Source: an uncultured bacterium
Lineage (GTDB): Bacteria > Bacillota > Clostridia > Lachnospirales > Lachnospiraceae
Direction: 5' to 3'
Assembly (NCBI GenBank): GCA_947383005.1
Contig: CANDBT010000016.1
Span: forward strand, 1-64,000
Length of the DNA: 64,000 bases
Shown here: positions 1 to 22,978 of the stretch, in pieces
Position numbering within the stretch: position 1 is the stretch's first letter
Layout: the number at the start of each line of letters is the position of its first letter
The notes under the pieces: model-generated
The model's database searches: none
What the model was told of the DNA's origin: nothing
What the model saw: only the letters and a program-made list of their open reading frames with translations
Program-made: the position numbers and the translations under genes

Positions 1-190
1 TAACTTATCAGAATTTGCGAAGCAAATTTTGATAAAAGGCGCGTTCTTAGCGCCGCAAATCCGATTACAGGAAGCCGTTTTTGCTTCCTGTAATATAACT
101 TATCAGAATTTGCGAAGCAAATTTTGATAAAAGGCGCGTTCTTAGCGCCGCAAATCCGATTACAGGAAGCCGTTTTTGCTTCCTGTAATA
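1..190. repeat. 95-bp three-hairpin repeat, two tandem units (locus 1)
   Basis: Two apparently identical 95-bp units follow each other directly; the array may continue left of the window. Each unit folds into three hairpins: a TTATCAGAATTTG stem closed by its complement, a short GGCGC/GCGCC stem, and ATTACAGGAAGC pairing with GCTTCCTGTAAT. The same architecture recurs at 12466-12652, 14998-15249 and 22880-22963. No protein is encoded; the open frame across it is a by-product of the repeat. Confidence 0.85.
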
Positions 191-208
191 TAAAGATAAA
201 AAGGAAAG

Positions 209-249
209 GAAACACCGTCGTCGGGGGAAAGGGCCTGGGGCGGTGTTTC
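209..249. terminator. Probable bidirectional terminator after the lipoprotein gene
   Basis: GAAACACCG (209-217) pairs with CGGTGTTTC (241-249). On the minus strand the stem is followed by a T-rich run, placing it just past the stop of the lipoprotein gene at 261-884; on the plus strand it is followed by a shorter T run. Confidence 0.6.
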
Positions 250-260
250 TTTAGGTTGTG

Positions 261-884
261 TCAGTACCCGCTGTTTATGACTTTCCAGTTATCGGATTTG
301 GATTTGCGGGCAATGCTGATGGAACGCATGGGGTTTCCGGCGCTTTTGTCTTTTCCGGTCAGTACCAGGTAGATGATGATATTGCCTGGCGGGTATTCGG
401 ATTCGATACCTGTATTCTTGTACATAGGGAAGTCGTCCTCTGCCGGCAGGATTTCTTCTACGCCGCCAAAACCAGGGGATTTTTCCGTAAAATAATATCG
501 GGCCAGTTCCTCTGTCGCCGCCAGTTCTTCGTCTGTCAGGGATGCGGCATAGGCGGGAGCGTCTTGGCTTTGATCGGTTTCAACGGTATAGTTAGAACCG
601 TAAACGATAAATTCAGAAGGGATAAAGCTGAGGGAATCACGTTCTTCATCAGCCAAAGTATAATACCAGTCCAGCCACTTTTGTGTATCTTCTGACAATT
701 CGCTCTTTTTTTTGGATATGCCGTTGAATTTGATTATTTCGTCCTCCGCGGAAGCTGATTCTTCCGACTGGCTGCATGGTGAAGAGGGGGACTCCTGGGA
801 GGGGGAGCCGTCGGGAGAACCGGCACAGCCGCAGAACAGCAAAGCTCCTGTGATCAGGAGAATGGATATTTTTTCCCAGTACAT
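261..884 (-). CDS. Hypothetical secreted lipoprotein
   Basis: A 207-residue protein of unknown function. The N-terminus is a type II signal peptide: a short charged start, a hydrophobic stretch and a lipobox ending at a cysteine (LLFCGC, around residue 20), so it should be a lipid-anchored extracytoplasmic protein. A Ser/Glu/Pro-rich linker follows (about residues 22-50), then a soluble domain with no motif I recognise. A good ribosome site (AAAGGAGG) precedes the ATG. It is transcribed away from the Crp/Fnr gene at 996, and the divergent region contains a 15-bp palindrome, TTGCTATTATAGCAA, which may be a regulatory site. Membership of any named family is not claimed. Confidence 0.75.
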   Translation of the reverse strand: MYWEKISILLITGALLFCGCAGSPDGSPSQESPSSPCSQSEESASAEDEIIKFNGISKKKSELSEDTQKWLDWYYTLADEERDSLSFIPSEFIVYGSNYTVETDQSQDAPAYAASLTDEELAATEELARYYFTEKSPGFGGVEEILPAEDDFPMYKNTGIESEYPPGNIIIYLVLTGKDKSAGNPMRSISIARKSKSDNWKVINSGY

Positions 885-995
885 AACAAATGCCTCCTTT
901 TTGCTATTATAGCAATAAAAGAGCGGAAAAAAATGAAGATATTTATAACATTATTTGAATTTTTATAACACTTACAGTTTGTCAAAGAACAGGGG

Positions 996-1664
996 ATGAA
1001 TATGAAAAATCGGATATTTACAGACAACGAAGAGAAATTGCTTAAGACTATCGGAACGGTAATTCAGGTTCAGCCGGGACATCCCGTCTATATGAAAGGC
1101 GATGTGGCGGAACGGGTTTATTATGTGATAAAAGGGCGTGTTCGGGTTTATGAAAATATTTCTTCCGGCCGGGAAATGACGCTGGACGTGGTGGAGGCAG
1201 GCCGGATTTTTGGTGAATCCGCTTTTGTGGGGGGAAATTTGCGGCCGACTTGCGTACAGGCGGTCAATGCAGTCACTCTGATTTCCATGCGGGTGAGTGA
1301 TCTGCTGCCATATTTCCGGCAGGAACCGGATCTGGCGCTGCATTTTCTCCAGCTCTGCTCGTACACAATGGATTATCTGACGGAGAGGATGGAGGATCAA
1401 TGCCTGCTTGACCGATATGGTAAGGTAGCGAATTATCTTTTGAACGAGACCAGGATGGATTCGGAGGAGAAAGGGACAGTGGGAGGCGTGCTTCCCTACA
1501 CACATGAAGATCTGGCGGTATCCCTGGGGCTTAACCGTTCTACGGTGACTATGGTACTGAAAAAATTTGAGAAGGAAGGATGGGTGTCCAGCGGATATCA
1601 GCAAGTAAAGGTTATCAATCGGAAAGCTCTGGAAGAAATGGTGGAGCAGCAAAAAAATCAGTAA
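996..1664 (+). CDS. Crp/Fnr-family transcriptional regulator
   Basis: A 222-residue regulator. Residues about 20-130 form the cyclic-nucleotide-type beta-roll sensor (GHPVYMKGDVAERVYYVIKG, later a GRIFGESAF segment). The C-terminus holds a winged helix-turn-helix with the typical order YTHEDLAVSLGLNRSTVTMV near residues 168-187. No cysteine cluster for an Fnr iron-sulfur centre is visible at the N-terminus, so it is more likely a Crp-like or CprK-like ligand sensor; the ligand is unknown. A possible binding site, TTGTT-N8-AACAA, sits about 40 bp before the predicted start of yitT transcription, so yitT is a plausible target (inference). An ATG two codons downstream is an equally good start. 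Confidence 0.88.
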   Translation: MNMKNRIFTDNEEKLLKTIGTVIQVQPGHPVYMKGDVAERVYYVIKGRVRVYENISSGREMTLDVVEAGRIFGESAFVGGNLRPTCVQAVNAVTLISMRVSDLLPYFRQEPDLALHFLQLCSYTMDYLTERMEDQCLLDRYGKVANYLLNETRMDSEEKGTVGGVLPYTHEDLAVSLGLNRSTVTMVLKKFEKEGWVSSGYQQVKVINRKALEEMVEQQKNQ

Positions 1665-1675
1665 AAATCTTAGAA

Positions 1676-1718
1676 TTGTTACATATACAACAATGTTTTT
1701 TCGGCCTTACGTTATAAT
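1676..1718 (+). promoter_or_regulatory. Candidate promoter of the YitT gene with Crp/Fnr-type half-sites
   Basis: A perfect -10 box TATAAT lies at 1713-1718 but no good -35 box can be found at the right spacing. In its place is an inverted repeat TTGTT-N8-AACAA (1676-1693) centred about 40 bp before the predicted start point, the usual position for an activator of the Crp/Fnr class that replaces -35 contacts. The gene for such a regulator ends just upstream. Confidence 0.35.
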
Positions 1719-1823
1719 GAAAATCAGAAAGAGAGTTTCTGAAAAATGTATAAGTGGCGATAGTTCAGACGGGCGAGAAGATGTTCCGCCTGGATTGCCA
1801 CGATAAACGAGGGAGGAAAGAAG

Positions 1824-2414
1824 ATGAAACAGGGAAAGACATTGATGTATATTGTGGCGGGGAATCTGTTGCTGGCTTTTGCTGTCTGTGCGTTTGTGGT
1901 TCCCAATCATTTTATGGCAGGAGGCTCTACAGGAGTAGCTTTGGCGCTGCATTCGTGGATACCCCTTCCCTTATCTGCGATTACTGCTGTGGTGAATACT
2001 TCTTTGTTTGTATTGGGGTTTGTCTGCCTGGGAAAGAAATTTGCTGCGGCTTCTCTGTGTTCGACGGTTATTTATCCGATGGTAATGGGTGTGATGGAAA
2101 AGCTGCCTTTGGGCCAGTGGTTCGGCGGGAATCTTATGTTGTCTGCGGTTTTGGCCGGGGTGTTTATGGGAGGCGGCATTGGCCTGGTGCTGCGGGCCGG
2201 CGGTTCCACAGGCGGTATGGATATCCCCCCTTGTATCCTGCAAAAGGTTAAACATATTCCTGTCGGGGTTTCGATGGTCTGTTTTGATTTGGTGATTTTG
2301 GCTGCGCAGATGTTGCGGGGGTCATGGGAAGGGATTTTCTACGGAATGACGATTATTGTTCTTACTTCGGCCATGGTAAGTTTATACTCAAGAACATGCT
2401 TATTGGCCCAATAA
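1824..2414 (+). CDS. YitT-family integral membrane protein, short form
   Basis: A 196-residue membrane protein with five to six hydrophobic segments. The N-terminal VVPNHFMAGGSTGVALAL stretch and the later LRAGGSTGGMDI motif are hallmarks of the YitT/DUF161 family, whose transport substrate is not established. Full-length YitT proteins run to about 280 residues and carry a soluble DUF2179 domain at the C-terminus; here the protein stops right after the last membrane helix, so that domain is absent. This could be a natural short form or an old truncation; no matching remnant was found downstream. The start has a clear GGAGG site. It follows a possible Crp/Fnr-controlled promoter. Confidence 0.8.
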   Translation: MKQGKTLMYIVAGNLLLAFAVCAFVVPNHFMAGGSTGVALALHSWIPLPLSAITAVVNTSLFVLGFVCLGKKFAAASLCSTVIYPMVMGVMEKLPLGQWFGGNLMLSAVLAGVFMGGGIGLVLRAGGSTGGMDIPPCILQKVKHIPVGVSMVCFDLVILAAQMLRGSWEGIFYGMTIIVLTSAMVSLYSRTCLLAQ

Positions 2415-2585
2415 TCGGGTGATTTTGTGGAAATTAAAAAGAACAATAAATTGAAAAAATCTATTGAACATTTCCCTTATTTCGTGATAAACTTGATATG
2501 TGACGTTTTTCTAAGCCACTTTAACGCTGACTTTAGTTTTCAGGTCTGCCTGGATGGCTTAAATGTGACTGTAGGAGGCGCGAAC

Positions 2586-3275
2586 ATGAGATTATCCGAA
2601 AAAAAAACTGACGAGAACGCCAGGATGTATGCCAGCCGTGTGATATTGGACAATATTATCAACTTGGAGCTGCCGCCGGGATCCGGGCTTAGTGAAAACG
2701 AATTGTCCGGTTTATTGAACCTGTCCCGTACTCCGGTGCGGGAAGCATTGATTGAGATGAGGCGGATGGGATTGGTTGAAATTATTCCCCAGAAGGGAAG
2801 TTTCGTGACAAAGATTGATTATGAGCTGATTGAGGAAGCAAAATTTATGCGCCTGGCTTTGGAAAATGCCGTTTTGCGTTTGGGGTGTGAACAAGGGGTT
2901 TCCGAGCATATTTTGAATCAGCTTAAAGAAAATCTGGAACAGCAGAGTATGTATACCTTATCGGAGGAAGCGTACAGCACGGTAATCGGATTAGACAACT
3001 CTTTTCATCGCCTGCTGTTTGAAGCGGTAGATAAGATACGGACTTATGAGCTGCTGCAGACACAGATGGTCCATTTTGACCGGCTGCGGACGTTGGCTTA
3101 TAAGGCGCTGAAGGGCGAAAAGAATAGTGTGACGCTGAAGGATCACGAAAATATTTTGTATGCATTGATAAGAAGGGATTATGAATTGGGCGAGATGGTG
3201 ATGGCGCGTCATCTGACGAGGCATCAAGTGGAAAAAAAGGAGCTGGACAGCCTTTATCCGGAGTACTTCTTGTAA
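2586..3275 (+). CDS. GntR-family regulator with FCD ligand domain
   Basis: A 229-residue regulator. The winged helix N-terminus shows the GntR signature (NELSGLLNLSRTPVREALIE, about residues 40-60, then GLVEIIPQKGSFV). The remainder is an all-helical FCD domain with the usual metal- or acid-binding histidines (FHRLLFEAV, then KDHENILYAL and ARHLTRH). The start is set at 2586 because GTAGGAGG lies just before that ATG; a longer frame exists upstream but lacks support. FCD regulators commonly control sugar-acid genes. It is next to the hexuronate block, and an 18-bp palindrome between the divergent dehydrogenase and TRAP genes (5722-5739) has the shape of a GntR operator, so it is the likely regulator of that block (inference). 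Confidence 0.88.
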   Translation: MRLSEKKTDENARMYASRVILDNIINLELPPGSGLSENELSGLLNLSRTPVREALIEMRRMGLVEIIPQKGSFVTKIDYELIEEAKFMRLALENAVLRLGCEQGVSEHILNQLKENLEQQSMYTLSEEAYSTVIGLDNSFHRLLFEAVDKIRTYELLQTQMVHFDRLRTLAYKALKGEKNSVTLKDHENILYALIRRDYELGEMVMARHLTRHQVEKKELDSLYPEYFL

Positions 3276-3394
3276 GAATCCAAAGTTTTGGCGCTGAACC
3301 GTGGGGAAACAGGCTGTGAAACGCAGGGCATGGAATTACGGTGAAGATATGAACAAAAAGAGAAATGCGGGCAGGCGGGCAAAACAAAAGAAAT

Positions 3395-3431
3395 GGGGCC
3401 GCTGCAAAATGGTATATTTTGCAGCGGCCCC
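3395..3431. terminator. Bidirectional terminator between convergent genes
   Basis: A perfect 16-bp stem: GGGGCCGCTGCAAAAT (3395-3410), a 5-nt loop, then its complement (3416-3431). It separates the GntR gene from the convergent zinc dehydrogenase, serving both strands. Confidence 0.8.
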
Positions 3432-3439
3432 ATAAATTA

Positions 3440-4459
3440 TTAGTACATGGTAACGACTACTTTCATATACTGGTTGGGATGTTTTTCAATATCGCGGATG
3501 ATTTCCGGCGCCTCGTCAATCGAGATGGTTTTTGTCAGGATTTTTGCCATGTCTACTTTTTTTGAGCAGATGATATCGATGGCTTCCTCAAATTCCCTGG
3601 CGCTGGTACGCGCCCCCCGGATGTCGATTTCCTTACGGGTGATGACATCGGTCGGCAGAGATGTTTCGGTTTTTGGCCAGCCGGTTAAAGTGATACGTCC
3701 TGCGTGGCTTACGTAGTCGAAGGTAGAGCGGATAGCCGAATTGGCGCCGCTGCATTCCATAACCTGCTGGGCCATCACTCCGTTGGTGATTTCCCGAATG
3801 CGTTCCACGGGATCTTCTTCTTTGGAGTTGATGATATATTCAATACCCAATTCTTTGGCAAAGTCGAGACGTTCCTGTACTAAATCAAGAAGAATTGCGT
3901 GCGCGCCGTAGGCTTCGGCTACCATACCAGCTACAAGGCCGATAGGGCCTGCGCCGATGATTACGCAGTACTCTCCGGCAGTAAGGCCGCCCCGGTGGAT
4001 GCCGTGGAGGGAGATGGTCAGCGGTTCGGCCATAGCGGCATCAGTCCAGCTCATATCTTCCGGCATTTTGATCAGCATGTCTGCCGGATGGCAGAAATAC
4101 TCAGCCATGCCGCCTTCGCTGTGGACACCCAACACCCGAAGGCTGGTACAGCAGTTGGTACGGCCGATACTGCAGGGGTAGCAGTCACCGCAGTAAAGAT
4201 AAGGGTCAACGATGACTTTATCTCCGGCTTTCAGGCCTTTGGGGTTATTCTCGGGGATCTCTTCGATGATGCCGGCGAGTTCATGGCCGATGGTCCGGGG
4301 ATAGGAAACCAGGGTGTTGGTACCACGGAAGGCGCCAATATCGCTGCCGCAGATACCGGCGCTCATAATGCGGATCAGGGCTTCTCCCGGCTGAGGAGTG
4401 GGTTTTTCTCTTTCCATAATGGAAACTTCCCAGGGTTTGGATAAATAAACAGCTTTCAT
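3440..4459 (-). CDS. Zinc-dependent medium-chain dehydrogenase (sugar-acid/polyol type)
   Basis: A 339-residue NAD(P)-dependent dehydrogenase of the medium-chain zinc family. It shows the catalytic zinc segment (GICGSDIGAFRG, then GHELAGIIEEI), the four-cysteine structural zinc lobe (YCGDCYPCSIGRTNCC), and the nucleotide-binding GAGPIGLVAG. The start has an AAGGAGG site. It is the second gene of a two-gene operon with the paralogous dehydrogenase upstream (4517-5542), divergent from TRAP-uxuA-uxuB. Related enzymes in such clusters oxidise L-gulonate, galactonate or similar acids at C5, which would feed fructuronate to UxuB; that substrate is an inference. Sorbitol- or threonine-dehydrogenase-like activity is the alternative. 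Confidence 0.85.
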   Translation of the reverse strand: MKAVYLSKPWEVSIMEREKPTPQPGEALIRIMSAGICGSDIGAFRGTNTLVSYPRTIGHELAGIIEEIPENNPKGLKAGDKVIVDPYLYCGDCYPCSIGRTNCCTSLRVLGVHSEGGMAEYFCHPADMLIKMPEDMSWTDAAMAEPLTISLHGIHRGGLTAGEYCVIIGAGPIGLVAGMVAEAYGAHAILLDLVQERLDFAKELGIEYIINSKEEDPVERIREITNGVMAQQVMECSGANSAIRSTFDYVSHAGRITLTGWPKTETSLPTDVITRKEIDIRGARTSAREFEEAIDIICSKKVDMAKILTKTISIDEAPEIIRDIEKHPNQYMKVVVTMY

Positions 4460-4516
4460 TTTTTTCCTCCTTTTTAGATATGATTAACAGCAAAAATTTA
4501 AGGTTTTCGCATGTTT

Positions 4517-5542
4517 TTATAAATTTTCAAAAGTCAAGACGATTTTGCGAATGGACGGATCATGGGTGTCTACAAAGTCAAAGGCTTCCTGTGCATGGGT
4601 CATAGGGAACCGATGGGAGATAGAGCCGTTAAGATCCAGTTTTCCGGCTTCAATCAGTTCGATTGCTTTTCCAAACATCTTGTTTTGGAGACGGGAACCA
4701 CGGACATCCAATTCTTTGGAGGTAATCAAAAACTGATTTACTTCGATAGGTGCGGTGGAGAAGCCCATAACCATGACTCTTCCGGCATTGCCCGTAGCTT
4801 TTAATAATGTCAACAAAGAGTCTTTTGTGCCCGAGGCATCGATGGATACGGTAGAGCCATGGCCGTCCGTATATTCTTTGACTTTTTCCTCCAGATTTTC
4901 GGTCAATACATTGATGGTATAAGATGCGCCGTTCGCTTTTGCCGCTTCAAGCTTGGCATCTACGATATCGGCTACGATGATGTGACCGCATATCTGCCGG
5001 GCGATTTTGAGGATAGAGCTTCCTAAGGCTCCGGCGCCTAAAATCAGCAACATGTCATCCTGGACGAGCTGGGCGCGGGAACAAGCCTGAATGGCGATGG
5101 TAGTGGGCTCGATCATTACGGCATCTTCATCGGAAAGGGAGTCGGGGAGCAAATAGCAATCTTCTTCCGGTACGGCCATGTATTCCCGGTAGCCGCCGTC
5201 AATGTGCACGCCCCGTACGGCTAAGTTGTCACAAACGTTTCCTCTTCCGATACGGCACGGATAACAGTGGCCGCAGCTTGTGACCTGATTGATGATTACC
5301 CGGTCGCCGGCTTTGAATTTTGTTGCGTTTTCCCCGACGGATTCTACGCGTCCTACCATCTCATGTCCGATGATTCTCGGATAGGTAGCAGCGGCATTCG
5401 TGCCGTGATAGATGCCGACATCGGAACCGCAGATACCAGCCGCGGTTAATTTAACCAGTACATTGTTCTTCTCATCAATAGATGGTTTCTCCAAATCAAT
5501 GATTTTTAACTGGTTGGGGGCAGCAATTTGTACAGCTTTCAT
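4517..5542 (-). CDS. Zinc-dependent medium-chain dehydrogenase, paralog
   Basis: A 341-residue paralog of the gene downstream. The same landmarks are present: GICGSDVGIYHG, GHEMVGRVESVG, structural zinc cysteines in SCGHCYPCRIGRGNVC, and the Rossmann GAGALGSSIL. The start is placed at the ATG at 5542 because AAAGGAG lies ten bases upstream; a GTG three codons earlier is too close to that site. It heads the two-gene dehydrogenase operon transcribed divergently from dctP. The two copies differ enough to suggest two substrates or two steps, for example oxidation of two epimeric hexonates (inference). Its upstream region holds a TTGTATGG half-site matching one arm of the 5722-5739 palindrome. Confidence 0.85.
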   Translation of the reverse strand: MKAVQIAAPNQLKIIDLEKPSIDEKNNVLVKLTAAGICGSDVGIYHGTNAAATYPRIIGHEMVGRVESVGENATKFKAGDRVIINQVTSCGHCYPCRIGRGNVCDNLAVRGVHIDGGYREYMAVPEEDCYLLPDSLSDEDAVMIEPTTIAIQACSRAQLVQDDMLLILGAGALGSSILKIARQICGHIIVADIVDAKLEAAKANGASYTINVLTENLEEKVKEYTDGHGSTVSIDASGTKDSLLTLLKATGNAGRVMVMGFSTAPIEVNQFLITSKELDVRGSRLQNKMFGKAIELIEAGKLDLNGSISHRFPMTHAQEAFDFVDTHDPSIRKIVLTFENL

Positions 5543-5666
5543 ACTTAACACGCTCCTTTTTAAGATAATTTGCAGAAAGATATTTTATCTGCCATACAAG
5601 ATAATCTCGCACTTTTCTTTAAAAATGTCAATAACACAGGTTAAAAAAAATCAACTTTGTGAAAGA

Positions 5667-5710
5667 TTGACAATTAATTTATTGAAATTTTGTAAACTAT
5701 TGCGTATTTA
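5667..5710 (+). promoter_or_regulatory. Candidate promoters of the TRAP-uxuAB operon
   Basis: Two overlapping candidates: TTGACA (5667-5672), 17-bp spacer, TTGTAA (5690-5695); and TTGAAA (5682-5687), 17-bp spacer, TATTTA (5705-5710). From the second, transcription would begin near 5717, just before the 5722-5739 palindrome, so a bound repressor would block it. Confidence 0.45.
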
Positions 5711-5721
5711 TTATTTTTGAC

Positions 5722-5739
5722 TTGTATGGTACCATACAA
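5722..5739. promoter_or_regulatory. Perfect 18-bp palindrome, likely GntR/FCD operator
   Basis: TTGTATGGTACCATACAA reads the same on both strands. It lies between the divergent dehydrogenase and TRAP operons, just downstream of the candidate plus-strand promoters. The TGGTACCA core is of the kind bound by FadR-like GntR dimers. A single TTGTATGG half-site is also present on the minus strand near 5592-5599. The GntR/FCD gene at 2586-3275 is the obvious candidate binder. Confidence 0.65.
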
Positions 5740-5817
5740 ATAGAGTTTTTATTATGACTGGCCATAAGAAACAGGCATGTGGCTGGTCAAACACAAAATC
5801 AAAAGGAGGATTACAAC

Positions 5818-6897: not shown

Positions 6898-6913
6898 AAT
6901 GTCTGATGCAAAA

Positions 6914-6936
6914 GAAAACCGCCATTGGCGGTTTTC
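6914..6936 (+). terminator. Intra-operon terminator after dctP
   Basis: GAAAACCGCC pairs perfectly with GGCGGTTTTC around a 3-nt loop. Its place just after dctP suggests partial termination, so that more binding protein than membrane subunits is made (inference). The following T run is short. Confidence 0.65.
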
Positions 6937-6945
6937 CCATATAAG

Positions 6946-7163
6946 CTAGTACTGCCTTGCGGAAATTCCGGTGAATTCGGCACTCGCTATTTCCGCCCTC
7001 TGCACGCCTGCAAAGCTAGACGTAGGCACCACTACGTTGCTAAGCGCCAGTGGCGCTTGTTCAGCAAGGACCGAAACGGAGTGTAGAACGTCGCTTTGCA
7101 GACGCACAGATGACGAAAATATCAAGCACTGTATTCACCATTATTTCCGCAATGCAGTACTAG
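6946..7163. repeat. Palindromic element C1 inside the TRAP operon
   Basis: About 218 bp bounded by near-perfect inverted ends (CTAGTACTGCcTTGCGGAAAT and its complement, one mismatch in 21). Inner hairpins include CGTAGnnnnnnnCTACG and AAGCGCCAGTGGCGCTT. It encodes no supported protein. It sits between dctP and dctQ, shares a CTAG end with the next element, and looks like a small non-autonomous insertion or structured RNA segment. Confidence 0.7.
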
Positions 7164-7325
7164 TACTCCGTACTTGAAGTTCCTGTGTAAATTTTCGAGG
7201 ATATTTTTTCGAGTGTGCAAGTTCAGAAACGGAGGCGTAGCGGGCTACGCTGAGTATTCTGGACTTGTGCAATCGGGAAAATAGACCGAAATATTTACAC
7301 AAGGGTTTTCAGTACGAAGTACTAG
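7160..7325. repeat. Palindromic element C2 abutting C1
   Basis: About 166 bp with imperfect inverted ends (CTAGTACTCCGTACTTGAA against the complement of TTTTCAGTACGAAGTACTAG, then GTGTAAAT/ATTTACAC). A strong inner stem, GCGTAGC-GG-GCTACGC, is flanked by a second arm pair around GCAAGTTCAGAA/TTCTGGACTTG. It shares the CTAGTACT edge with C1. From 7326 to the dctQ ribosome site I see no further feature. Confidence 0.6.
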
Positions 7326-7537
7326 TGTTAAGAACTCGTAAAGAGAGCTTTTCAAGATGTGATCCCGAATTCTCCCTGTGCCTGGATTTGTGAGATGAAT
7401 TTTGCCAGATATGCGCAAAATTGCGGGGCGTTCAGGTATGTGTGTTACGTTTATTAATTTTGAGCGTATCCGGAAATCGGCCGCAAAGGCAGGGGCAAGA
7501 GGGGCTCCGGGAGGCATCAAGATATTTAGGAGGAAAA

Positions 7538-8026: not shown

Positions 8027-8029
8027 AAT

Positions 8030-9313: not shown

Positions 9314-9363
9314 ATCTGGTTACCCGATAATTGCTTTTATCTTTATATATGGAGGAAATTATA

Positions 9364-10443: not shown

Positions 10444-10465
10444 TGGTAACTGTTGCAAATAATGG

Positions 10466-10846
10466 ATAACTGTTCAGATGGCGGGGAATTCGGCATGGAT
10501 TTTGGCATGGATTTTGGGCGTCAAGTCGGACTCTTTTCATGCACAGGCCCGCACAGAGGAATATGCCGTTAAAGCGGCGTGCGGGCCGCGCGGCGAGCAG
10601 GGGAGATGGCTTTTCCTTACTCAATTGCACACGGGCGCCCAAAGGAAGATGCCAGCTATAGCTGGGGAGGGCGCCTGGCGCGGCGGGGTAGGGAGGGAAG
10701 CTTCCCCTACTCAATTGCGCAGCCCTATGCAGAGGAAGTATGTTGCAGAAGCGGCGCATGGAGCGTGCGGCGAATAGGGGAAGATGGTTCTTCCCTGCCC
10801 GATTTCGGCTCAGACGGGCAAGGAGACTCCCCGTCTGAATGGTTAT
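10466..10846. repeat. GTAACAG-type palindromic element between uxuA and uxuB (A-family)
   Basis: The ends form an imperfect inverted repeat: ATAACTGTTCAGATGGCGGG on the left, CCCCGTCTGAATGGTTAT on the right. Between them are two diverged direct copies of an about 88-bp segment (roughly 10541-10627 and 10717-10806), each beginning near a GCAGAGGAA-like motif and ending near a CTTCCCT-like motif. Open frames here are artefacts of the GC-rich repeat. Related ends occur at 51813-51963 and 63305-63360. Confidence 0.6.
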
Positions 10847-10865
10847 AAGAATTTGGAGGGAAAAA

Positions 10866-12488
10866 ATGAAACTGACATTAAAGGGAATACAAGATGCGGC
10901 TGCCTGGAAGGCGGCAGATATTACTCTTCCTTCTTATGATGTGGAAAAAATTGCGGCTGATACAAAAGAGGCTCCTGTGTGGGTGCATTTCGGTGCTGGA
11001 AATATTTTCCGTATATTTATCGGCGGACTGGCGGACCGGCTTATCAGCCAGGGTGAAATGGACAAGGGTATTACCTGTGTAGAAACTTTTGATTTTGACG
11101 TAATTGACAAGATTTATAAGCCTTATGACAATCTGGTGTTAGCTGTTACATTAAAAGCTGATGCTTCCACGGAAAAACAGGTTATCGGTTCCCTGACCGA
11201 AGCGATCAAGGCTATTTCTGCCGATGATGCGGAGTGGGGGCGTTTGAAAGAAATATTCACTTATCCTGGTCTCCAGATGATTTCTTTTACGATTACGGAA
11301 AAGGGATATGCGCTTAGGGGCGCTGACGGGGCATTCTTCCCCTTCATCCAGGCGGATATTGACAATGGCCCGGGTAAGGCTGTGTCGGCTATGGCGGTTG
11401 TCTGCTCCCTGCTTTGGGAACGCTATCGTGCCGGCAAGCTTCCGCTGGCGGTGGTTTCTATGGACAATTGTTCCCATAACGGAGAAAAGCTTCAAAGCTC
11501 TATCCTTACCATGGCGGAGGAATGGGAAAAGAAAGGTTTTGTGGAAGCAGGCTTTATCGATTATCTGAAAGACGAGGAGCAGGTATCCTTCCCCTGGTCC
11601 ATGATTGATAAGATTACACCAAGACCTGCAGATTCTGTCTGCGCGGAGCTGAAAAAGCTGGGCGTGGAGGATATGGATCCGGTGATTACATCCAAAAGAA
11701 CCTATATTGCTCCTTTCGTCAACGCAGAAGGTCCTCAGTATCTGGTGATTGAAAATAAATTCCCCAATGGGCGTCCGGCTCTCGAAAAAGCCGGGGTCTA
11801 TATGACCGACCGAGATACCGTCAATAAGGTGGAACGGATGAAAGTGACGACTTGCTTGAATCCGCTGCATACGGCTCTTGCTGTATACGGATGTGTGCTG
11901 GGTTATACTTTAATCGCTGATGAGATGAAAGATCCTGAGCTGAACAGGTTGGTTCACGAGATCGGGCCTGTGGAAGGAATGCCGGTAGTAACCGACCCAG
12001 GTATTCTTTCACCTCAGGCGTTTGTAGATGAAGTGATTCAGGTGAGGATTCCCAATCCCTTTATGCCGGATGCGCCTCAGCGTATCGCAACCGATACTTC
12101 CCAGAAGGTAGGTATCCGCTATGGGGAGACGATCAAAGCTTATGTGGCAAAATACGGTGACGCGAAAAAACTGAAAGCGATTCCGCTGGCTATTGCCGGA
12201 TGGTGCAGGTATCTTCTGGCTGTAGATGATAAGGGAGAAGCGTTTGAGCTTTCCGCAGATCCGATGATTCCGGAATTGACCAAAAAGCTGGAAGGGATTG
12301 AAGTCGGAAAACCGGAAACGTATAAAGGCCAATTAAAAGAGATTCTTTCCAATGCCAATATTTTTGGGATTGATTTGTATGAAGCCGGTATTGGGGAGAA
12401 GATTGAGGAAATGTTTGTGGAAGAAATTGCCGGCCCCGGAGCGGTGAGGGCAGTTTTGAAGAAATATATTACAGGAACCACTGCGTGA
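10866..12488 (+). CDS. uxuB: Fructuronate reductase / mannitol dehydrogenase family (UxuB)
   Basis: A 540-residue long-chain polyol dehydrogenase that should interconvert D-fructuronate and D-mannonate with NAD(H). The N-terminal Rossmann region has VWVHFGAGNIFRIFIGGL (about residues 39-56). Later segments typical of the family are VVSMDNCSHNGEKL, TYIAPFVNAEG and CLNPLHTALAVYGC. Start ATG 10866 has TTTGGAGGG before it. The extreme C-terminus is odd: the last six residues (ITGTTA) and the TGA stop are read from the first unit of a 95-bp repeat that begins at 12466. It is the last gene of the TRAP-uxuA operon. A mannitol or other polyol substrate is possible, but its neighbour uxuA favours fructuronate. 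Confidence 0.9.
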   Translation: MKLTLKGIQDAAAWKAADITLPSYDVEKIAADTKEAPVWVHFGAGNIFRIFIGGLADRLISQGEMDKGITCVETFDFDVIDKIYKPYDNLVLAVTLKADASTEKQVIGSLTEAIKAISADDAEWGRLKEIFTYPGLQMISFTITEKGYALRGADGAFFPFIQADIDNGPGKAVSAMAVVCSLLWERYRAGKLPLAVVSMDNCSHNGEKLQSSILTMAEEWEKKGFVEAGFIDYLKDEEQVSFPWSMIDKITPRPADSVCAELKKLGVEDMDPVITSKRTYIAPFVNAEGPQYLVIENKFPNGRPALEKAGVYMTDRDTVNKVERMKVTTCLNPLHTALAVYGCVLGYTLIADEMKDPELNRLVHEIGPVEGMPVVTDPGILSPQAFVDEVIQVRIPNPFMPDAPQRIATDTSQKVGIRYGETIKAYVAKYGDAKKLKAIPLAIAGWCRYLLAVDDKGEAFELSADPMIPELTKKLEGIEVGKPETYKGQLKEILSNANIFGIDLYEAGIGEKIEEMFVEEIAGPGAVRAVLKKYITGTTA

Positions 12489-12652
12489 ACCCTGTAATCG
12501 GATTTACGGCGCAAAGGACGCGCCTTTTATCGGAAATCGCTGTGCAATTTCCGATAAGTTATATTACAGGAACCACTGCGTGAACCCTGTAATCGATTTG
12601 CGGCGCAAAGGACGCGCCTTTTATCAAAATTTGCTTCGCAAATTTTGATAAG
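12466..12652. repeat. 95-bp three-hairpin repeat, two units, reverse orientation (locus 2)
   Basis: Two 95-bp units in the opposite orientation to locus 1, starting at 12466 and 12561. The first overlaps the 3' end of uxuB. The units differ from each other mainly in the second hairpin: one has a GGAAAT-type stem, the other TTATCAAAATTTGC with its exact complement, so changes on one arm are matched on the other. The ATTACAGG hairpin could also act as a terminator for uxuB. Confidence 0.85.
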
Positions 12653-12679
12653 CTACATTACCGCCTAACTAATAAACAA

Positions 12680-12811: not shown

Positions 12812-13831
12812 TTACTTCACGGAATATGTATAGCGGTTGCCATCTATTTTAAAAGAAACCGTCACCTGTTCACCGTTCGTTTCCAGTTCCTCGGGAACCT
12901 GGAAGATGTAGTGGATATATTCCGTACACAGCGGGAGGACAACTGCCACATTGGAATAATCCTCAAACATACTTCTGTTGCTCAGTTCTGTCACACTGAC
13001 TGCTGCTTCTGCCTGATCCAGATCGGCAGAGACAGCTTTGCCGGCATCTATCTTCTGTGATGCTCTGTTCGTATAGGCAACGCAGAAATCCAGGAAGGTC
13101 TTTCCGTCCTCAGCTTCATAAAAGTTATAGGCGGTGCCTGGTGACAGTGGCGCTACCTTTTTCGTGAATACCGCATGTTCCACATAGAATTCCGCATTGT
13201 CCGTGACCACCACATCTTCGGGTCCGACCTCCCCGGATGTCTCGTCAGAAACACTGGCGCTCCCGCTGGCAGGGACAACCCCCTTCTCGCCTTCCCTTAC
13301 AATAACGCGGTATTCGTTTTCACGTATGTTCATATTCAGTTCCACCATACGGCTGCTATCCTGCACCTCTCTCGGCACAAGGAAAAAGTAATGGATCTGC
13401 ATGCTGTCCGAAGGTTCCATGTCAAACCAGTGTGCCGGAGATGAAAACAGGCCATCCTCGTCTGTCACCGTGTCATTGCCGCCATATTCATACATCCCGG
13501 AATAAATCAGCTTTCCCCCCATGACATTACTTGCATTGACGGTATAATCGGTAAGGTTCTGGAAGGTGATACAAAACTCCGCGTATGTCTTGCCCGCATC
13601 GGCTTCATAATAAAGTTCCGGGTGATCGGATATGGTCACATAGTCCACATGGAACTGGCATTCACCGTCAATCGTTACTGTCTCCCCTTCTGCCAGTAGC
13701 GGCGCATCGCTTTCCGGGAGAAGGGCCTGGGTCTGGGATGGGGACTCTTTCGTCGGGGCGCTGCTTCCTGAACATCCCGTAAGGGAAAAAGCGAGCAGGA
13801 TTATGGCGGCAAGTGGTAAGTGTTTTTTCAT
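12812..13831 (-). CDS. Hypothetical lipoprotein with two related halves
   Basis: A 339-residue lipoprotein of unknown function. The signal peptide ends at the lipobox cysteine in FSLTGCSGSS (about residue 20). The mature part seems to hold two similar beta-rich modules: each begins with a 'cxF/xVDYV or FYVEHAVF' strand, then the phrase YYEADAGKTYAEFCITFQN or FYEAEDGKTFLDFCVAYTN, and ends with a hydrophobic strand before QIHYFFLVPRE or YIHYIFQVPEE. This internal duplication resembles DUF4352/TEF-type ligand folds, though I do not assign one. The start at 13831 is set by AAAAAGGAG; the longer frame upstream lacks a ribosome site. It appears monocistronic. Confidence 0.75.
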   Translation of the reverse strand: MKKHLPLAAIILLAFSLTGCSGSSAPTKESPSQTQALLPESDAPLLAEGETVTIDGECQFHVDYVTISDHPELYYEADAGKTYAEFCITFQNLTDYTVNASNVMGGKLIYSGMYEYGGNDTVTDEDGLFSSPAHWFDMEPSDSMQIHYFFLVPREVQDSSRMVELNMNIRENEYRVIVREGEKGVVPASGSASVSDETSGEVGPEDVVVTDNAEFYVEHAVFTKKVAPLSPGTAYNFYEAEDGKTFLDFCVAYTNRASQKIDAGKAVSADLDQAEAAVSVTELSNRSMFEDYSNVAVVLPLCTEYIHYIFQVPEELETNGEQVTVSFKIDGNRYTYSVK

Positions 13832-14110
13832 TGTTCGGTTCTCCTTTTTGTAATTCATTTTCACATTCTTAAAAAACACATGGCATGTCATATATTGTAA
13901 ATTTGCAAACATATCCCCTTTGGGTTTGCATGGGCATGGACGAAGCTGATATTGACGTAGCCGCAAATGTAGAACAACGTTCATTGTTTCCACATTGGGA
14001 AACAGCCTGTTGTTTTTCTGCTGTGACGAACAGTAAGAAAGTTTGGAAATAAAAATTAAGCTAAGTTATCCATCAGTAGTTGAACAGAAAGAAATTGCAA
14101 ATACCAATCC

Positions 14111-14677: not shown

Positions 14678-14841
14678 GATTGACCCTCTTGTTTGATGGG
14701 ATTGTTCAAATTCTTGCTCAGCTCCTTCTGCTCAATGAGAACCCTCGTGGTCGGTATTGTCCCGTCGATGAAGCTGATGTGGTTCAAATGCACCTGCATC
14801 TTTCCAGTTGGTTGCAAAACTTTTGGCGGTCTATTTCTCAT
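14674..14841 (-). CDS. Small ORF (55 aa) overlapping the next gene
   Basis: Reads MRNRPPKVLQPTGKMQVHLN at its start and ends NNPIKQEGQS. The stop codon overlaps the ATG of the 188-residue gene by the classic ATGA arrangement, and the two probably form one operon. It contains a VHLNHISFIDGTIPTTRVLI segment that looks protein-like rather than random. No strong ribosome site precedes its ATG, so the true start could differ or the ORF could be the remnant of a longer gene; the frame is open upstream for about 14 codons. Function unknown. Confidence 0.45.
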   Translation of the reverse strand: MRNRPPKVLQPTGKMQVHLNHISFIDGTIPTTRVLIEQKELSKNLNNPIKQEGQS

Positions 14842-14997
14842 TTTAACATATAGGACAGAGGATTTCCATAGTGGCTCCAGAATTTTTTAAGAAAGCCGTT
14901 ACTATTCATAGGGTAGATGTGAACCGTAACAGAATGCTTCTTAACAAAAACTTAACATTTTCTTGAATATTTTTTACTGTTGTTCTATAATAGGATA

Positions 14998-15249
14998 AAA
15001 GGCACAGCTTTTCGTGCCGTAAATCCGATTACAGGATTCGCGAAGCGGTTCCTGTAATATAACTTATCGGAAATTGCGAAGTAATTTCCGATAAAAGGCG
15101 CGTCTTTTGCGCCGTAAATCCGATTACAGGATTCGCGAAGCGGTTCCTGTAATATAACTTATCGGAAATTGCGAAGTAATTTCCGATAAAAGGCGCGTCT
15201 TTTGCGCCGTAAATCCGATTACAGGATTCGCGAAGCGGTTCCTGTAATA
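14998..15249. repeat. 95-bp three-hairpin repeat, about 2.6 units (locus 3)
   Basis: One partial unit (14998-15059) and two full units (15060-15154, 15155-15249), same orientation as locus 1. Stems: TTATCGGAAATT with AATTTCCGATAA, ATTACAGGA with TCCTGTAAT, and GGCGC with GCGCC. In the partial unit the last stem is GGCAC with GTGCC, so both arms changed together. It fills the gap before degV; the rest of 14842-14997 holds nothing else I can name. Confidence 0.88.
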
Positions 15250-15300
15250 TAAGCGTAACCGTCCGGACGGTATAAAATTATATTGAGGATGTGGATGTGT

Positions 15301-16191: not shown

Positions 16192-16220
16192 CCGTCCAGG
16201 AAATATTTGGACAGTTACGC
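16186..16220. terminator. Terminator hairpin between degV and the AraC gene
   Basis: GCGTAACCGTCCA pairs with TGGACAGTTACGC with one mismatch around a short AT loop. The degV stop codon lies within the left arm. The GTAAC ends resemble the A-family repeats. Confidence 0.6.
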
Positions 16221-16231
16221 ACCCAAGGCAT

Positions 16232-17104: not shown

Positions 17105-17244
17105 AAGCTTCTCCGTTCGTTTTTGGTGGCCTGTAAATGCCGGATAAAGAACACATGGGTATCATTATAAGAAATACATAAAACATGAGTGATCAACACA
17201 AGGTTATTGTATCATTTTGTGTATGTTTTGTCCAATGAAAGCAA

Positions 17245-17273
17245 TGGAAATCTGTTATTTTGCTATATATAAT
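17245..17273 (+). promoter_or_regulatory. Candidate lacZ promoter
   Basis: TGGAAA (17245-17250), a 17-bp spacer, then TATAAT (17268-17273). It lies in the divergent AraC-lacZ region and gives a leader of about 155 nt that includes the short tandem repeats at 17320-17394. Confidence 0.5.
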
Positions 17274-17319
17274 GGTAACAGCAATTAGGTATTTGTGAAC
17301 AGTAATATGAGCTTCCCTT

Positions 17320-20591
<3,272 letters not shown>

Positions 20592-20658
20592 ATGCTGGCA
20601 ATCAATTGCCGGGCAGGTTTGACCGGAAACGGAATAGCTGAAGATAAGGAGAAAATTT

Positions 20659-22023
20659 ATGGAAGAAAAAAGATATTTAAGATGGTATAACAAAATCGGG
20701 TACGGTTCCGGGGATATTGCCGGAAATGTAGTGTACGCGCTGCTGTCCTCCTTTGTGATGATTTATCTGACGGATACCGTAGGTCTTAACGCAGGTATTG
20801 TCGGGACATTGATGATGTTTTCCAAGCTCTTTGACGGAGTAACCGATATTTTTTTCGGTTCTATGATAGACAAAACGAAAAGCAGGATGGGAAAGGCCCG
20901 TCCCTGGATGTTTTGGGGATATTTTGGCTGTGCAGTAACCCTGGCTTCTATTTTTATGATTCCTTCGAGTTTGGGCGAGGGGGCTAAATATGCCTGGTTT
21001 TTCATTGCTTACAGTTTGCTGAATGCAGTATTTTATACGGCTAATAACATTGCTTATTCTGCATTGACCGCGCTCATTACCAAAAACGGCAGCGAACGTG
21101 TGCAGATGGGCTCCATCCGGTTTATGTTTGCTTTTGCCACGAGTCTTTTTATCCAGGCCGTAACCGTAAATTTTGTCCGTGCCATGGGCGGCGGCGCTGC
21201 CGGCTGGCGTGCGGTGGCCATCATTTATGCACTTGTTGGGCTGGCAGTCAATTCCATTTCGGTATGGTCCGTAAAAGAGCTCACTCCGGAAGAATTGGAG
21301 GAAACAACCAATAAAAAAGAGGTGGAGAAACGGGAAAAGTATGGTCTGGGAGATGCGGCTCAGTTGCTGGCTGCCAATAAGTTTTATATTATCATCTGCT
21401 GTGTTTATATTCTGACTCAGATTTATACGGCCACCTTGAACATGGGTATCTATTTTATGACTTATATTTTGGGGGATGCGTCTTTACTGGGAGTGTTTTC
21501 TGTGGCAATCAATGTCCCTCTGATTATCGGGCTGATCATGACACCTATGCTCGTTAAAAAGATGAAGGGTATGTACAAAATCAATCTTGCTGGTTATGCC
21601 CTGGCTACCGTGGCCCGTTTGATCGTGATTGCAGGTGCCTATATGGGCAATATACCCATAATGCTTGTTTTTTCCGGAATAGCTGCCGTCGGCATGAGTC
21701 CGCTTCAGGGCGATTTGAATGCGCTGATAGCTGCCTGTTCGGAGTATACGTTTCTTACGAAGAAGAAAAGGATTGACGGGACGATGTATTCTTGTACTTC
21801 ACTGGGGGTGAAAATCGGCGGAGGTATCGGCACGGCTCTGGCAGGATGGCTGCTGGCAGCGAGCGGTTATGTCGCTAATCAGCCCATGCAGGCAGATTCT
21901 TGTATACAAATGCTGTATTTTATGTACCTTTGGGTTCCGATGATTATTAATCTGGTAATTACTTTGCTGTTGTCAAAACTGAAAGTGGAGCAGGCAAATG
22001 CCAGGTTGGAAGGTGCAGGGTAA
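20659..22023 (+). CDS. GPH-family sugar:cation symporter (MelB/LacS-like)
   Basis: A 454-residue, 12-helix transporter of the glycoside-pentoside-hexuronide family. Family marks are the N-terminal KIGYGSGDIAGNVVY, the first-loop acidic residues in KLFDGVTDIFFGSMIDKTKS, and the KARPWMFWG segment. It has no PTS IIA tail as found in LacS of lactic acid bacteria. Its position just after beta-galactosidase and its shared AraC regulator make a galactoside, perhaps lactose, the expected substrate (inference). A strong terminator follows. Confidence 0.9.
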   Translation: MEEKRYLRWYNKIGYGSGDIAGNVVYALLSSFVMIYLTDTVGLNAGIVGTLMMFSKLFDGVTDIFFGSMIDKTKSRMGKARPWMFWGYFGCAVTLASIFMIPSSLGEGAKYAWFFIAYSLLNAVFYTANNIAYSALTALITKNGSERVQMGSIRFMFAFATSLFIQAVTVNFVRAMGGGAAGWRAVAIIYALVGLAVNSISVWSVKELTPEELEETTNKKEVEKREKYGLGDAAQLLAANKFYIIICCVYILTQIYTATLNMGIYFMTYILGDASLLGVFSVAINVPLIIGLIMTPMLVKKMKGMYKINLAGYALATVARLIVIAGAYMGNIPIMLVFSGIAAVGMSPLQGDLNALIAACSEYTFLTKKKRIDGTMYSCTSLGVKIGGGIGTALAGWLLAASGYVANQPMQADSCIQMLYFMYLWVPMIINLVITLLLSKLKVEQANARLEGAG

Positions 22024-22050
22024 GCGGGAGCTCAAAAGTACCCAAAAAGA

Positions 22051-22086
22051 GTCGCTTAACAGGCAGTTAAGCGACACTTTTATTTT
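22051..22086 (+). terminator. Terminator after the symporter gene
   Basis: GTCGCTTAAC (22051-22060), loop AGGCA, GTTAAGCGAC (22066-22075), then ACTTTTATTTT. A good intrinsic terminator closing the lacZ operon. Confidence 0.88.
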
Positions 22087-22270
22087 ACACAAATACTAAA
22101 AACTCTGTATTTCTTTAACGTTCTCGATTATAACATCATTTCTATGGGATGTCAACTGCGTTGAATTTCCATTTCAGATGGTTTTCTCCACATTTTCCTG
22201 TTCATATAGATATGATTTTCATATAAACATTTCCCTAATGTACATAGGAAGCATGAAAGGCTGTTGAAAA

Positions 22271-22300
22271 GAGTCGCTTAACTGCCTGTTAAGCGTCATA
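22271..22300. repeat. Second copy of the same hairpin with inverted loop
   Basis: CGCTTAAC, loop TGCCT, GTTAAGCG (22275-22295), preceded by AAAAGAGT exactly as in the 22051 hairpin. The loop is the reverse complement of the first. On the minus strand it is followed by CTCTTTTC, so it may end leftward transcription. The 185 bp between the two hairpins holds no gene I can support. Confidence 0.65.
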
Positions 22301-22324
22301 TTTCATTCAACAAAGTCATTTGTC

Positions 22325-22834
22325 ATGAATACTGCTGGGGTTTCTTGCGGCAGAACGGTAAAGGGGATGAAGAAAATCTGGTATTTGCTGAAATGTCCTG
22401 AAGGAAATGAAGCGGGTTGTGCAGAATTTTATCAGAGCCGCGCCGAAGAAAACGGCATTAAGGAGGCAGTGTGCTTCGAGTATCAGCGAATGCTGCGCTA
22501 CGGAGGGAAGTGGCATCTGGAGAGGCGGCCTCTTATGCCAGGCTGGATTTTCTTATCAGGGGTAAAAGCGGTGAGACCCAAGAAAAAGGATGTCATGCTG
22601 ATTCCCTGCGAGGCGCCTGGCATGAGAGCATTATGTCAGGAGGGCAACCTCATCAGCATGTCCAGAGGAGTCATTCGGGGGGGCAAGGTTGTGGTCACAA
22701 GCGGTCCCCTAAAAGGCCGGGAAGATCTGATCAAAAGGATCGACCGTCATAAACGGACTGCACAGATCGAGATCCCTTTTGCGGATCAGAAGATGCAGGT
22801 CATAGTGGGCTTGGAGATCTATGAGAAAACATAA
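22325..22834 (+). CDS. NusG/LoaP-like transcription elongation factor, divergent
   Basis: A protein of up to 169 residues with the layout of NusG. The N-terminal region has a NGN-like start (KKIWYLLKCPEGNE) and a PLMPGWIFLSGVKAV strand matching the 'PGYvFv' core of NGN domains. The C-terminal KOW motif is plain: GKVVVTSGPLKGREDLIKRI. Neither ATG at 22325 nor the one at 22367, which fits family alignment better, has a well-spaced ribosome site. It is more divergent than the LoaP homolog 390 bp downstream. Specialised NusG paralogs bind RNA polymerase and prevent early termination in long surface-polysaccharide operons; two in a row at one locus is unusual. It might act on the same operon or compete with LoaP. 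Confidence 0.7.
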   Translation: MNTAGVSCGRTVKGMKKIWYLLKCPEGNEAGCAEFYQSRAEENGIKEAVCFEYQRMLRYGGKWHLERRPLMPGWIFLSGVKAVRPKKKDVMLIPCEAPGMRALCQEGNLISMSRGVIRGGKVVVTSGPLKGREDLIKRIDRHKRTAQIEIPFADQKMQVIVGLEIYEKT

Positions 22835-22879
22835 CGGTTATCAATAGTTAAAGTATAAGAATAATTGCGGAGAGTTATA

Positions 22880-22963
22880 CGCTTCGCGAACCCTGTAATC
22901 GGATTTACGGCGCAAAGAACGCGCCTTTTATCGGAAATTACTTCACAATTTCCGATAAGTTAA
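22880..22963. repeat. 95-bp three-hairpin repeat, one truncated unit (locus 4)
   Basis: Reverse orientation. Contains the GGCGC/GCGCC stem and TTATCGGAAATT with AATTTCCGATAA, but the ATTACAGG arm of the remaining hairpin is missing at its left edge, so the unit is cut. It lies between the two NusG-like genes, just before the left inverted repeat of the glycan locus. Confidence 0.8.
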
Positions 22964-22978
22964 TTTATGAGCATACTT

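Follow-up and report, generated by a model that had tools for sequence, protein, structure and literature searches.

Lachnospiraceae and their relatives are common in the gut, and the repeats described here are conserved in structure across members of this group. Several copies lie in a 64,000-nt stretch of an uncultured Lachnospiraceae genome (the window), where the first-pass annotation had reported a 95-bp unit with three hairpins whose stems change in a matched manner. The locus raises the question of whether the fold is retained for what the units do where they lie or for the way in which they move, and, in the latter case, what moves them.

Units in the window and their distribution

The window carries eight units at four loci, 2-191 (+), 12466-12654 (-), 14991-15250 (+) and 22880-22961 (-), in agreement with the annotation, and six of them are complete (Table 1). 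The proposed period of 95 bp and the three-hairpin organisation also hold, and the 54 full units measured are 94-104 bp long. Of the two truncated units, the first of array 3 misses most of hairpin A and that of array 4 the 3' arm of hairpin C. Copies occur in tandem and in both orientations as annotated, with two (+) arrays of two to three units and (-) arrays at 12466 and 22880. The R2 repeat, the end of which adjoins array 4, resembles by eye a TA-flanked inverted-repeat MITE.

Table 1. Repeat units, hairpins and adjoining features in the window
Feature	Position	Strand	Remarks
Array 1, unit 1 (complete)	2..96	+	Identical to unit 2; array starts at contig end
Array 1, unit 2 (complete)	97..191	+	Identical to unit 1
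Hairpin A of array 1 unit 2	100..130	+	14 pairs, loop GAA; foot TTATC/GATAA nearly invariant
Hairpin B of array 1 unit 2	133..149	+	5 pairs, GGCGC/GCGCC
Hairpin C of array 1 unit 2	159..189	+	12 pairs, foot ATTA/TAAT
Terminal AATAT of array 1 unit 2	187..191	+	Right end of the element; putative target of the next insertion
Mannitol dehydrogenase-family gene	10839..12488	+	Stop codon inside array 2; KKYITGTTA* versus KKYITG* in a relative
Array 2, complete unit, hairpin A type CGG	12466..12560	-	
Array 2, complete unit, hairpin A type CAA	12561..12654	-	86% identity to neighbouring unit
Array 3, first unit, 5'-truncated, hairpin B type GGCAC/GTGCC	14991..15060	+	
Array 3, complete unit	15061..15155	+	
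Array 3, complete unit	15156..15250	+	Identical to preceding unit
Array 4, single 3'-truncated unit	22880..22961	-	Adjoins end of repeat family R2
R2 repeat copy	22962..23051	-	Degenerate at its end; no unit at two further R2 copies seen

The covariance-model search suggested by the annotation returned 124 matches in the genome at E ≤ 0.001, among the best 150 candidates scored, and the family was recovered from related genomes as well; BLAST gave 71 matches to the unit. From 62 fetched stretches, window included, we assembled 125 units in 80 arrays of one to five, with many truncated copies. The hairpin-C pattern matched the genome 86 times, versus 0 for the reversed control. Such recurrence lies well above chance. 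The distribution is patchy: 7 of the 24 genomes of the genus carry the family, as do named Lachnospiraceae, among them two Anaerocolumna with finished genomes, and order-wide 3 of 392 genomes (own included) are carriers when filtering is strict and 10 candidates are scored in each. A match in Ruminiclostridium (L195) was discarded as a probable chance hit, being 42 bases in coding-like sequence. Carriage by phages or plasmids is weakened as an explanation, since viral contigs contained no exact pattern match and phage and plasmid records gave no blastn match when queried with the window's own unit rather than with diverged variants.

Fold and covariation of the unit

Compared with dinucleotide shuffles, the 95-nt unit folds better by 7.7 sd, and none of 200 shuffles is as good. 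Covarying pairs amount to 10 of 31 within the genome and 20 of 31 across named genomes, counted as sequences and not as events, and the covariation score was reached by 0 of 500 shuffles. In three sets covariation exceeds both the shuffles and the slid-partner controls, except that further pair types, one of five measures applied to the own-genome set, are not above shuffles (reached by 212 of 500). Since alignments A2 and A3 follow the covariance model, an unconstrained, structure-free alignment was also examined, which recovered the three hairpins de novo, with the foot pairs of hairpin C absent from the predicted consensus. A structure-free mutual-information ranking recovers the covariation too.

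These data bear out the proposal that the fold is kept by selection, either as RNA or as the substrate of an enzyme. Neither a lack of covariation nor a collection of identical copies alone, the outcomes which the first-pass annotation had associated with simple duplication, was observed. The stem variants it quoted are real, although the ATTACAGGATTC/GGTTCCTGTAAT pair does not compensate cleanly, its inner stem containing a T.T mismatch and wobbles.

Among 128 distinct units, the feet and linkers are nearly invariant, the feet being preceded by AAC, AA and ATCYG, while the outer stems vary with pairing maintained. On the unit strand G.U pairs exceed A.C pairs by 81:5, 91:14 and 71:4 cells. 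This excess favours one folded single strand, either RNA or ssDNA, over double-stranded palindromes. No match to Rfam 15 at the gathering score was found in the window; within positions 1-300 at E ≤ 10 there were eight matches, each well short of its gathering score, with a lowest E of 0.14.

Ends, insertion site and tandem arrays

The unit ends are sharp. Among the 80 arrays, 54 left and 55 right ends were countable; at least two of the right-end readings (C1 279 and C63 7869) are false and were too short to enter the base counts. The left flank reads RTAATAT|A, then CTTATC, and holds at most 0.19 bits beyond 9 nt outside. At the right end, A and T are fixed after the terminal AAT (54/55 and 52/55), and an A/G preference then fades within two bases. 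A single clean empty site was found, in which contig C22 of genome G000 reads ACAATAT|GGTGAC and G021 reads ACAATAT, a unit ending in AATAT, and GGTGGC; G022 holds a truncated unit there. This site places the insertion directly behind AATAT. In a second candidate, Anaerocolumna sedimenticola L275 versus MB42-C2 L265, changes in the flanks obscure the comparison.

Six arrays have AGTAT at their left, and in the five with a readable right end this is AATAT four times and AGTAT once. Because the AGTAT-left arrays mostly end in AATAT, the left motif appears to be the target and not a copy of the right end. One array in A. sedimenticola departs from this pattern and ends in AATCT; a guide-like co-change of target and element was considered for it and dropped, as its left flank is AATAT. 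No target duplication is seen beyond the AATAT that ends the element, and AATAT on both sides is compatible with a duplication of up to 5 bp.

All 45 pairs of neighbouring units within 120 bp share the same orientation, and at all 25 junctions where near-full units meet, the sequence is A[AG]TATA[AG]C and the register is exact. When 24 such neighbour pairs were compared, 10 were identical and 12 were below 90% identity, the mean between loci being 79%. Tandem arrays of 2-6 occur in the finished A. sedimenticola genome. Within one species, tandem units resemble each other in hairpins A and B; between two species these hairpins differ. An orthologous two-unit array common to two Anaerocolumna species has undergone a compensatory change in place, from AAC/GTT to AAT/ATT.

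On balance, we lean towards a view of the unit as a non-autonomous mobile element, ~95 bp long, which is moved when folded, inserts 3' of a TAATAT-like site and builds its arrays serially. The unit strand (AACTTATC...TAATAT) would have to fold single-stranded into three hairpins in order to be moved; an enzyme would act in trans on this folded strand, which would itself be the moving intermediate, and insertion would take place directly 3' of the site. Because the element itself ends in AATAT, no separate target duplication would be visible, and the end of every copy would offer a fresh target, so that serial insertion would yield head-to-tail, in-register arrays of unlike units in the same orientation. 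Tandem duplication or unequal recombination would presumably add identical units and shuffle hairpins between units. Unlike neighbours in register could alternatively originate from recombination between arrays. As a whole, the family is best read as a new group of structure-dependent, non-autonomous mobile elements.

The units might instead be retained in place as functional structured RNAs or cis-regulatory hairpins, acting for example in mRNA stability or attenuation, with their mobility old or incidental. The covariation and the G.U excess fit RNA, one insertion is common to G021 and G022, and the compensation within the orthologous Anaerocolumna array could stem from gene conversion or a role in situ instead of from mobility. 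We nevertheless consider this explanation unlikely, since the 66 arrays with two called neighbours have no fixed relation to genes (28 opposite, 16 same, 11 convergent and 11 divergent, against a background of 235 co-directional, 42 convergent and 40 divergent neighbouring ORFs in the same stretches, gene calls being longest-ORF guesses). There is also no conserved promoter upstream, the flanks are low in information, and the many truncated copies and the patchy occurrence across the order argue in the same direction. A shared neighbouring gene was likewise rejected or weakened: among the 132 nearest flanking ORFs, called at ≥ 120 aa and excluding any above 700 aa or with internal stops, the commonest Pfam matches are choline-binding (5) and response-regulator (4) families.

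Candidate mobilising enzymes and related repeats

A transposase gene associated with the units, which the first-pass annotation had proposed to look for, did not emerge from the flanking ORFs, the Y1 loci or the end-pattern searches. The 25 families shown, of 227 matched by the 132 flanking ORFs, include no transposase or recombinase. The ORF at 12812-13993, between arrays 2 and 3, was considered as a mobiliser and gave no domain match over the cut-off; it sits in a stretch 92% identical to G022. No larger element with unit ends was found by the hairpin-C pattern, which is limited to some stem types: judged by eye, all matches listed for the genome fall within known arrays except C33:22-54 and C46:34581-34613, both at contig ends. 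Nine loose left-end matches, viewed among the first listed of 128, comprise several truncated units and a remainder without a second end. These two sets of matches reject, or at least weaken, the idea of a larger autonomous element sharing the unit ends.

The units could be ends-only relatives of IS200/IS605 or REP/REPIN-like repeats, moved as ssDNA by an HUH Y1 transposase (TnpA or RAYT) that has since been lost from many carriers. The geometry is the same when set beside the insertion and hairpin rules in the available part of PMC6006769: the hairpins lie subterminally on a single strand, insertion occurs 3' of a short target without a clear duplication of it, and the terminal motif resembles a cleavage site. 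Matches to PF01797 (HUH/Y1) occur in 4 of 10 carrier genomes, but several are broken or fragmentary (stops interrupt two of the four in G019 and the single match in G321, and the G006 match is a fragment), and none was found in the other six, which include both finished Anaerocolumna genomes and G417-G419, MAGs of no stated completeness. Moreover, the loci of the Y1 ORFs in the window's genome are without unit-like ends, and the unit hairpins have no GTAG-type or GT[AG]G foot. With local GC skew as a proxy for the replication strand, the counts in four genomes are 37:40, 10:9, 3:7 and 8:15 (58 vs 71 in total), giving no clear strand bias of the kind expected from insertion into the lagging-strand template; the latter two sets are small, though both tilt to the same side. 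The distribution of Y1, the comparison of ends and the balance between strands thus reject or at least weaken IS200/IS605 or RAYT mobilisation, which we judge to be rather improbable, and the moving enzyme is probably not of the HUH/Y1 type.

A speculative and similarly doubtful alternative is a folded nucleic-acid ring, with three hairpins around a well conserved single-stranded core, which would be joined behind TAATAT by a non-HUH enzyme or by the strand itself. With the ends joined, the core ATAAC, AA and GTMMATCYG, as RNA or ssDNA, would be the recognised part. If true, this would be mobile DNA of a class that has no protein of its own, does without HUH/Y1 and shows no strand bias.

We give still less credence to an ordinary MITE moved by a DDE transposase, for instance with TA duplication, in which the palindromes would be incidental. 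The sequence is compatible with a TA or AT duplication at the unit ends, and R2 in the same genome is MITE-like by eye. However, the ends have no clear terminal inverted repeat, the weak 7-bp likeness of ATATAAC to ATATTAC being the only one seen by eye, and neither the strand asymmetry of the wobbles nor the conserved inner hairpin feet would be expected. Template-switch correction of quasi-palindromes generates paired changes without selection, and together with recombination spreading the copies it could account for the within-species likeness of hairpins A and B, but under it neither strand should be richer in G.U than in A.C, nor should linkers and feet stay invariant; we consider it very improbable.

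If the unit is a structure-dependent mobile element, as we prefer, it has several partial counterparts. The BOX elements of Streptococcus pneumoniae are short, modular, dispersed hairpin repeats in which the central module is repeated, whereas the present family repeats whole three-hairpin units head to tail. PATEs, the short, IS605-related palindrome-associated transposable elements of Haloquadratum, are likewise too short for a transposase and have near-terminal palindromes without terminal inverted repeats, according to the accessible portion of PMC3119063. The same portion describes PATEs as lacking target duplication, where our unit has none beyond AATAT with ≤ 5 bp possible, and as having palindromes that match IS605-type transposons, a partner that was not found for the unit. 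The three hairpins, the ordered tandem arrays and the six carriers in which Y1 genes were not found further separate the unit from PATEs as portrayed there. REPINs and REPs, as far as the available parts of PMC3116915 and PMC6006769 describe them, likewise occur as numerous structured copies scattered between genes, of which some form ordered tandem clusters of near-identical units and some arose by insertion beside existing ones. A REPIN, in these texts, consists of two REPs in inverted orientation with a linked RAYT gene, and GT[AG]G marks the foot of canonical REPs; the unit has neither a linked Y1 gene nor such a foot. RU/ERIC-type enterobacterial repeats, the subject of PMC2759123 and PMC2229807, are also small, mobile, intergenic, non-autonomous and roughly 100-170 bp. 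They differ in host group and in tandem arrangement.

Among the papers listed by our searches of an open-access library, none appeared to describe the family. It makes testable the question of what moves small bacterial repeats when no HUH transposase is found. Assembly breaks, too, are found at the arrays: 12 of the 80 lie ≤ 60 bp from a contig end.

Structure and covariation of the repeat unit

The first-pass annotation described a 95-bp repeat at four loci of the window, and this description holds: eight units, six complete and two truncated, lie at those loci. On its own strand, the unit reads AAC-hairpin A-AA-hairpin B-GTMMATCYG-hairpin C-AT, with 14, 5 and 12 pairs in hairpins A, B and C, respectively. 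Folded alone as RNA, it reaches -41.5 kcal/mol (z = -7.7), and the opposite strand folds more weakly (-37, z = -6.4). In the whole genome, BLAST finds 71 matches, and a covariance model (R1) trained on 46 distinct units finds 124 at E up to 0.001 among 150 candidates scored. Across the window and 61 fetched stretches, together covering 446 kb of distinct bases, 125 units form 80 arrays: 45 of one unit, 27 of two, 7 of three and one of five. A contig end falls within 60 bp of 12 of the 80, including that at window base 1, so the true arrays are probably longer than counted.

The covariation of the stems, also proposed from the window alone, is borne out. For the 46 units of the genome studied, standard pairs fill 97.0% of pair cells, and the covariation score is 0.216 versus 0.117 after shuffling (reached by 0 of 500 shuffles) and 0.011-0.085 with slid partners. 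Two-sided changes occur in 10 of 31 pairs, matched by 1 of 500 shuffles; further pair types are not above shuffles (212 of 500 reach the value). The scores are 0.238 versus 0.119 for 38 units of other species, taken from matches in 28 fetched stretches, and 0.324 versus 0.138 for 44 units of named genomes, with 16 and 20 of 31 pairs changed on both sides. Because the latter two alignments were fitted to the covariance model, 41 units were realigned without structure; RNAalifold places three hairpins at the same positions, with two-sided changes in 18 of 25 pairs, but does not pair the foot of hairpin C. When column pairs from 119 units (effective number about 25) are ranked by mutual information with no structure supplied, 10 of the top 12 fall along the stem diagonals of A and C and the other two in inner hairpin C; hairpin B first appears at rank 20.

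In a double-stranded DNA palindrome, a G.T mispair on one strand is an A.C mispair on the other, so both should be tolerated equally. The unit strand shows G.U:A.C ratios in the three sets of 81:5, 91:14 and 71:4 by cells, and 12:5, 16:11 and 15:3 by columns, which is the fairer figure since many cells are inherited together, and by which the second set has no wide gap. The excess speaks for a single folded strand with a definite polarity, either RNA or single-stranded DNA. Near-invariant positions among 128 distinct units are pairs 1-4 in hairpin A, pairs 1 and 2 in B, pairs 1, 3 and 4 in C and, between the hairpins, the AA linker and five of the nine B-C linker positions. The outer parts of A and C differ between units but stay paired. 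Such a pattern would follow from recognition at the hairpin feet or from a compact core. In three different records (L167, L169, L186), two foot pairs of hairpin C are replaced by non-standard pairs, a sheared-G.A-like change.

Insertion, array growth and distribution

On the left, the flank is RTAATAT|A before CTTATC, and positions farther out carry little information (54 of 80 arrays counted); the right ends are TAAT-AT, followed by an A/G preference that is gone within two bases (55 of 80 counted). In genome G021, a unit lies between ACAATAT and GGTGGC, and contig C22 of the genome studied reads ACAATAT GGTGAC at that site; thus, insertion occurred 3' of a pre-existing AATAT and the right-hand AATAT came from the element, although the latter is indistinguishable from a duplication of up to five bases. 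Genome G022 carries a truncated unit at the same site. The metagenome-assembled genome JAAVYA has AATAG both at left flanks and at right ends or junctions (L188, L197, L199), which is what a required match between target and element end would produce; against this, one Anaerocolumna sedimenticola array has AATAT on the left and AATCT on the right. In a three-unit array of that species (L275:2113-2401), TTATC/GATAA has become TTCTC/GAGAA together with the end AATCT.

Neighbouring units within 120 bp of each other share orientation in 45 of 45 pairs, and where near-full units adjoin, the register is exact (25 of 25 junctions). Of 24 near-full neighbour pairs, 10 are identical, two are at 96% and 12 under 90%, the mean identity between loci being 78.8%. 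Identical neighbours mean tandem duplication, and the best explanation for unlike in-register neighbours is that a copy inserted next to an older one, at its AATAT end. Types of hairpins A and C occur in many combinations, so units have recombined as well.

In the finished A. sedimenticola genome, 34 matches have E of 1e-5 or better, and its arrays run to as many as six units; therefore, tandem arrays are not an assembly artefact. Anaerocolumna sp. MB42-C2 has 12. Within the genus of the window, 7 of 24 genomes have matches (124 in its own, then 35, 5, 2, 1, 1 and 1), and an even draw with strict filters found 3 of 392 genomes of the order, own included. Scanning named genomes with a sequence pattern yielded 47 stretches; most carry the title Lachnospiraceae or Clostridiales, and some belong to the window's own genus. 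Viral contigs had no match to the exact unit pattern, phage and plasmid records none to the window's own unit, and Rfam nothing at threshold; full-text searches of an open paper library listed no paper evidently on this family.

Possible mode of mobility

The likeliest reading is that the units form a new family of small mobile elements that depend on their structure and are moved by a putative enzyme. Palindrome-associated transposable elements (PATEs; PMC3119063) and IS200/IS605 transposition share the geometry of the unit; in the latter, an HUH Y1 enzyme recognises subterminal hairpins and directs insertion 3' of a short target (PMC6006769). Y1 itself (Pfam PF01797) is present in four of 10 carrier genomes and gave no match in six, including both finished Anaerocolumna genomes, and no unit-like ends were seen at the Y1 loci of the genome studied. 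With local GC skew as the guide to replication direction, unit orientations are about evenly split in two sets (37:40 and 10:9) and lean to one side in two small ones (3:7 and 8:15). These three tests weigh against Y1 as the mover, so the claim we keep is that the unit would work like a PATE, not that it is IS200/IS605-derived.

ALTERNATIVES. The units may instead act where they lie, as transcribed RNA. Two Anaerocolumna species share a two-unit array at one site; its hairpins A and B match within each species but not between the two, and hairpin C of the first unit has one compensated pair, a change in place that fits such a role. Against it speak an orientation to genes that follows no rule (of 66, 28 opposite, 16 same, 11 convergent and 11 divergent), the lack of conserved upstream sequence in the flanks, and the patchy distribution. 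Template-switch repair of palindromes would explain the paired changes, but leaves the wobble asymmetry and invariant linkers unexplained.

Neighbouring genes and repeats

Array 2 lies within the final codons of a mannitol dehydrogenase-family gene, whose stop it replaces at 12466-12488, the protein gaining a few residues. One of six relatives (G010, L148) has TAATAT on the matching strand at this site. The ORF stretch beside this gene possibly reflects recent transfer, judging from its identity to G022; the dehydrogenase gene has 73-78% identity to relatives. The MITE-like repeat R2, with ends TATACC/GGGTATA, is abutted at its end by the unit at 22880 and by one on contig C2, that is, in two of the four copies seen; the other two lack a unit. 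The first antiterminator-like gene has a LoaP match below cut-off.

Features near the arrays (window positions, or L-numbered fetched stretches)
Feature	Location	Strand	Remark
R2, second dispersed repeat	22962-23051; L091:2881-3100; L018; L019		about 90 bp
Further repeated stretches	6930-7290, 7351-7527, 10520-10804, 51806-51982, 63297-63363, 63411-63663		copies near other arrays of the genome
Two NusG/LoaP-like antiterminator genes	22325-22834 and 23210-23740		either side of array 4
ORF without known domain	12812-13993	-	stretch 92% identical to G022

By eye, another repeat, GTCCTCTGCGGATAT...GCAGAGACTA or a relative of that sequence, lies near several arrays of genome G019 (L114, L116, L117, L119, L122, L123, L125).
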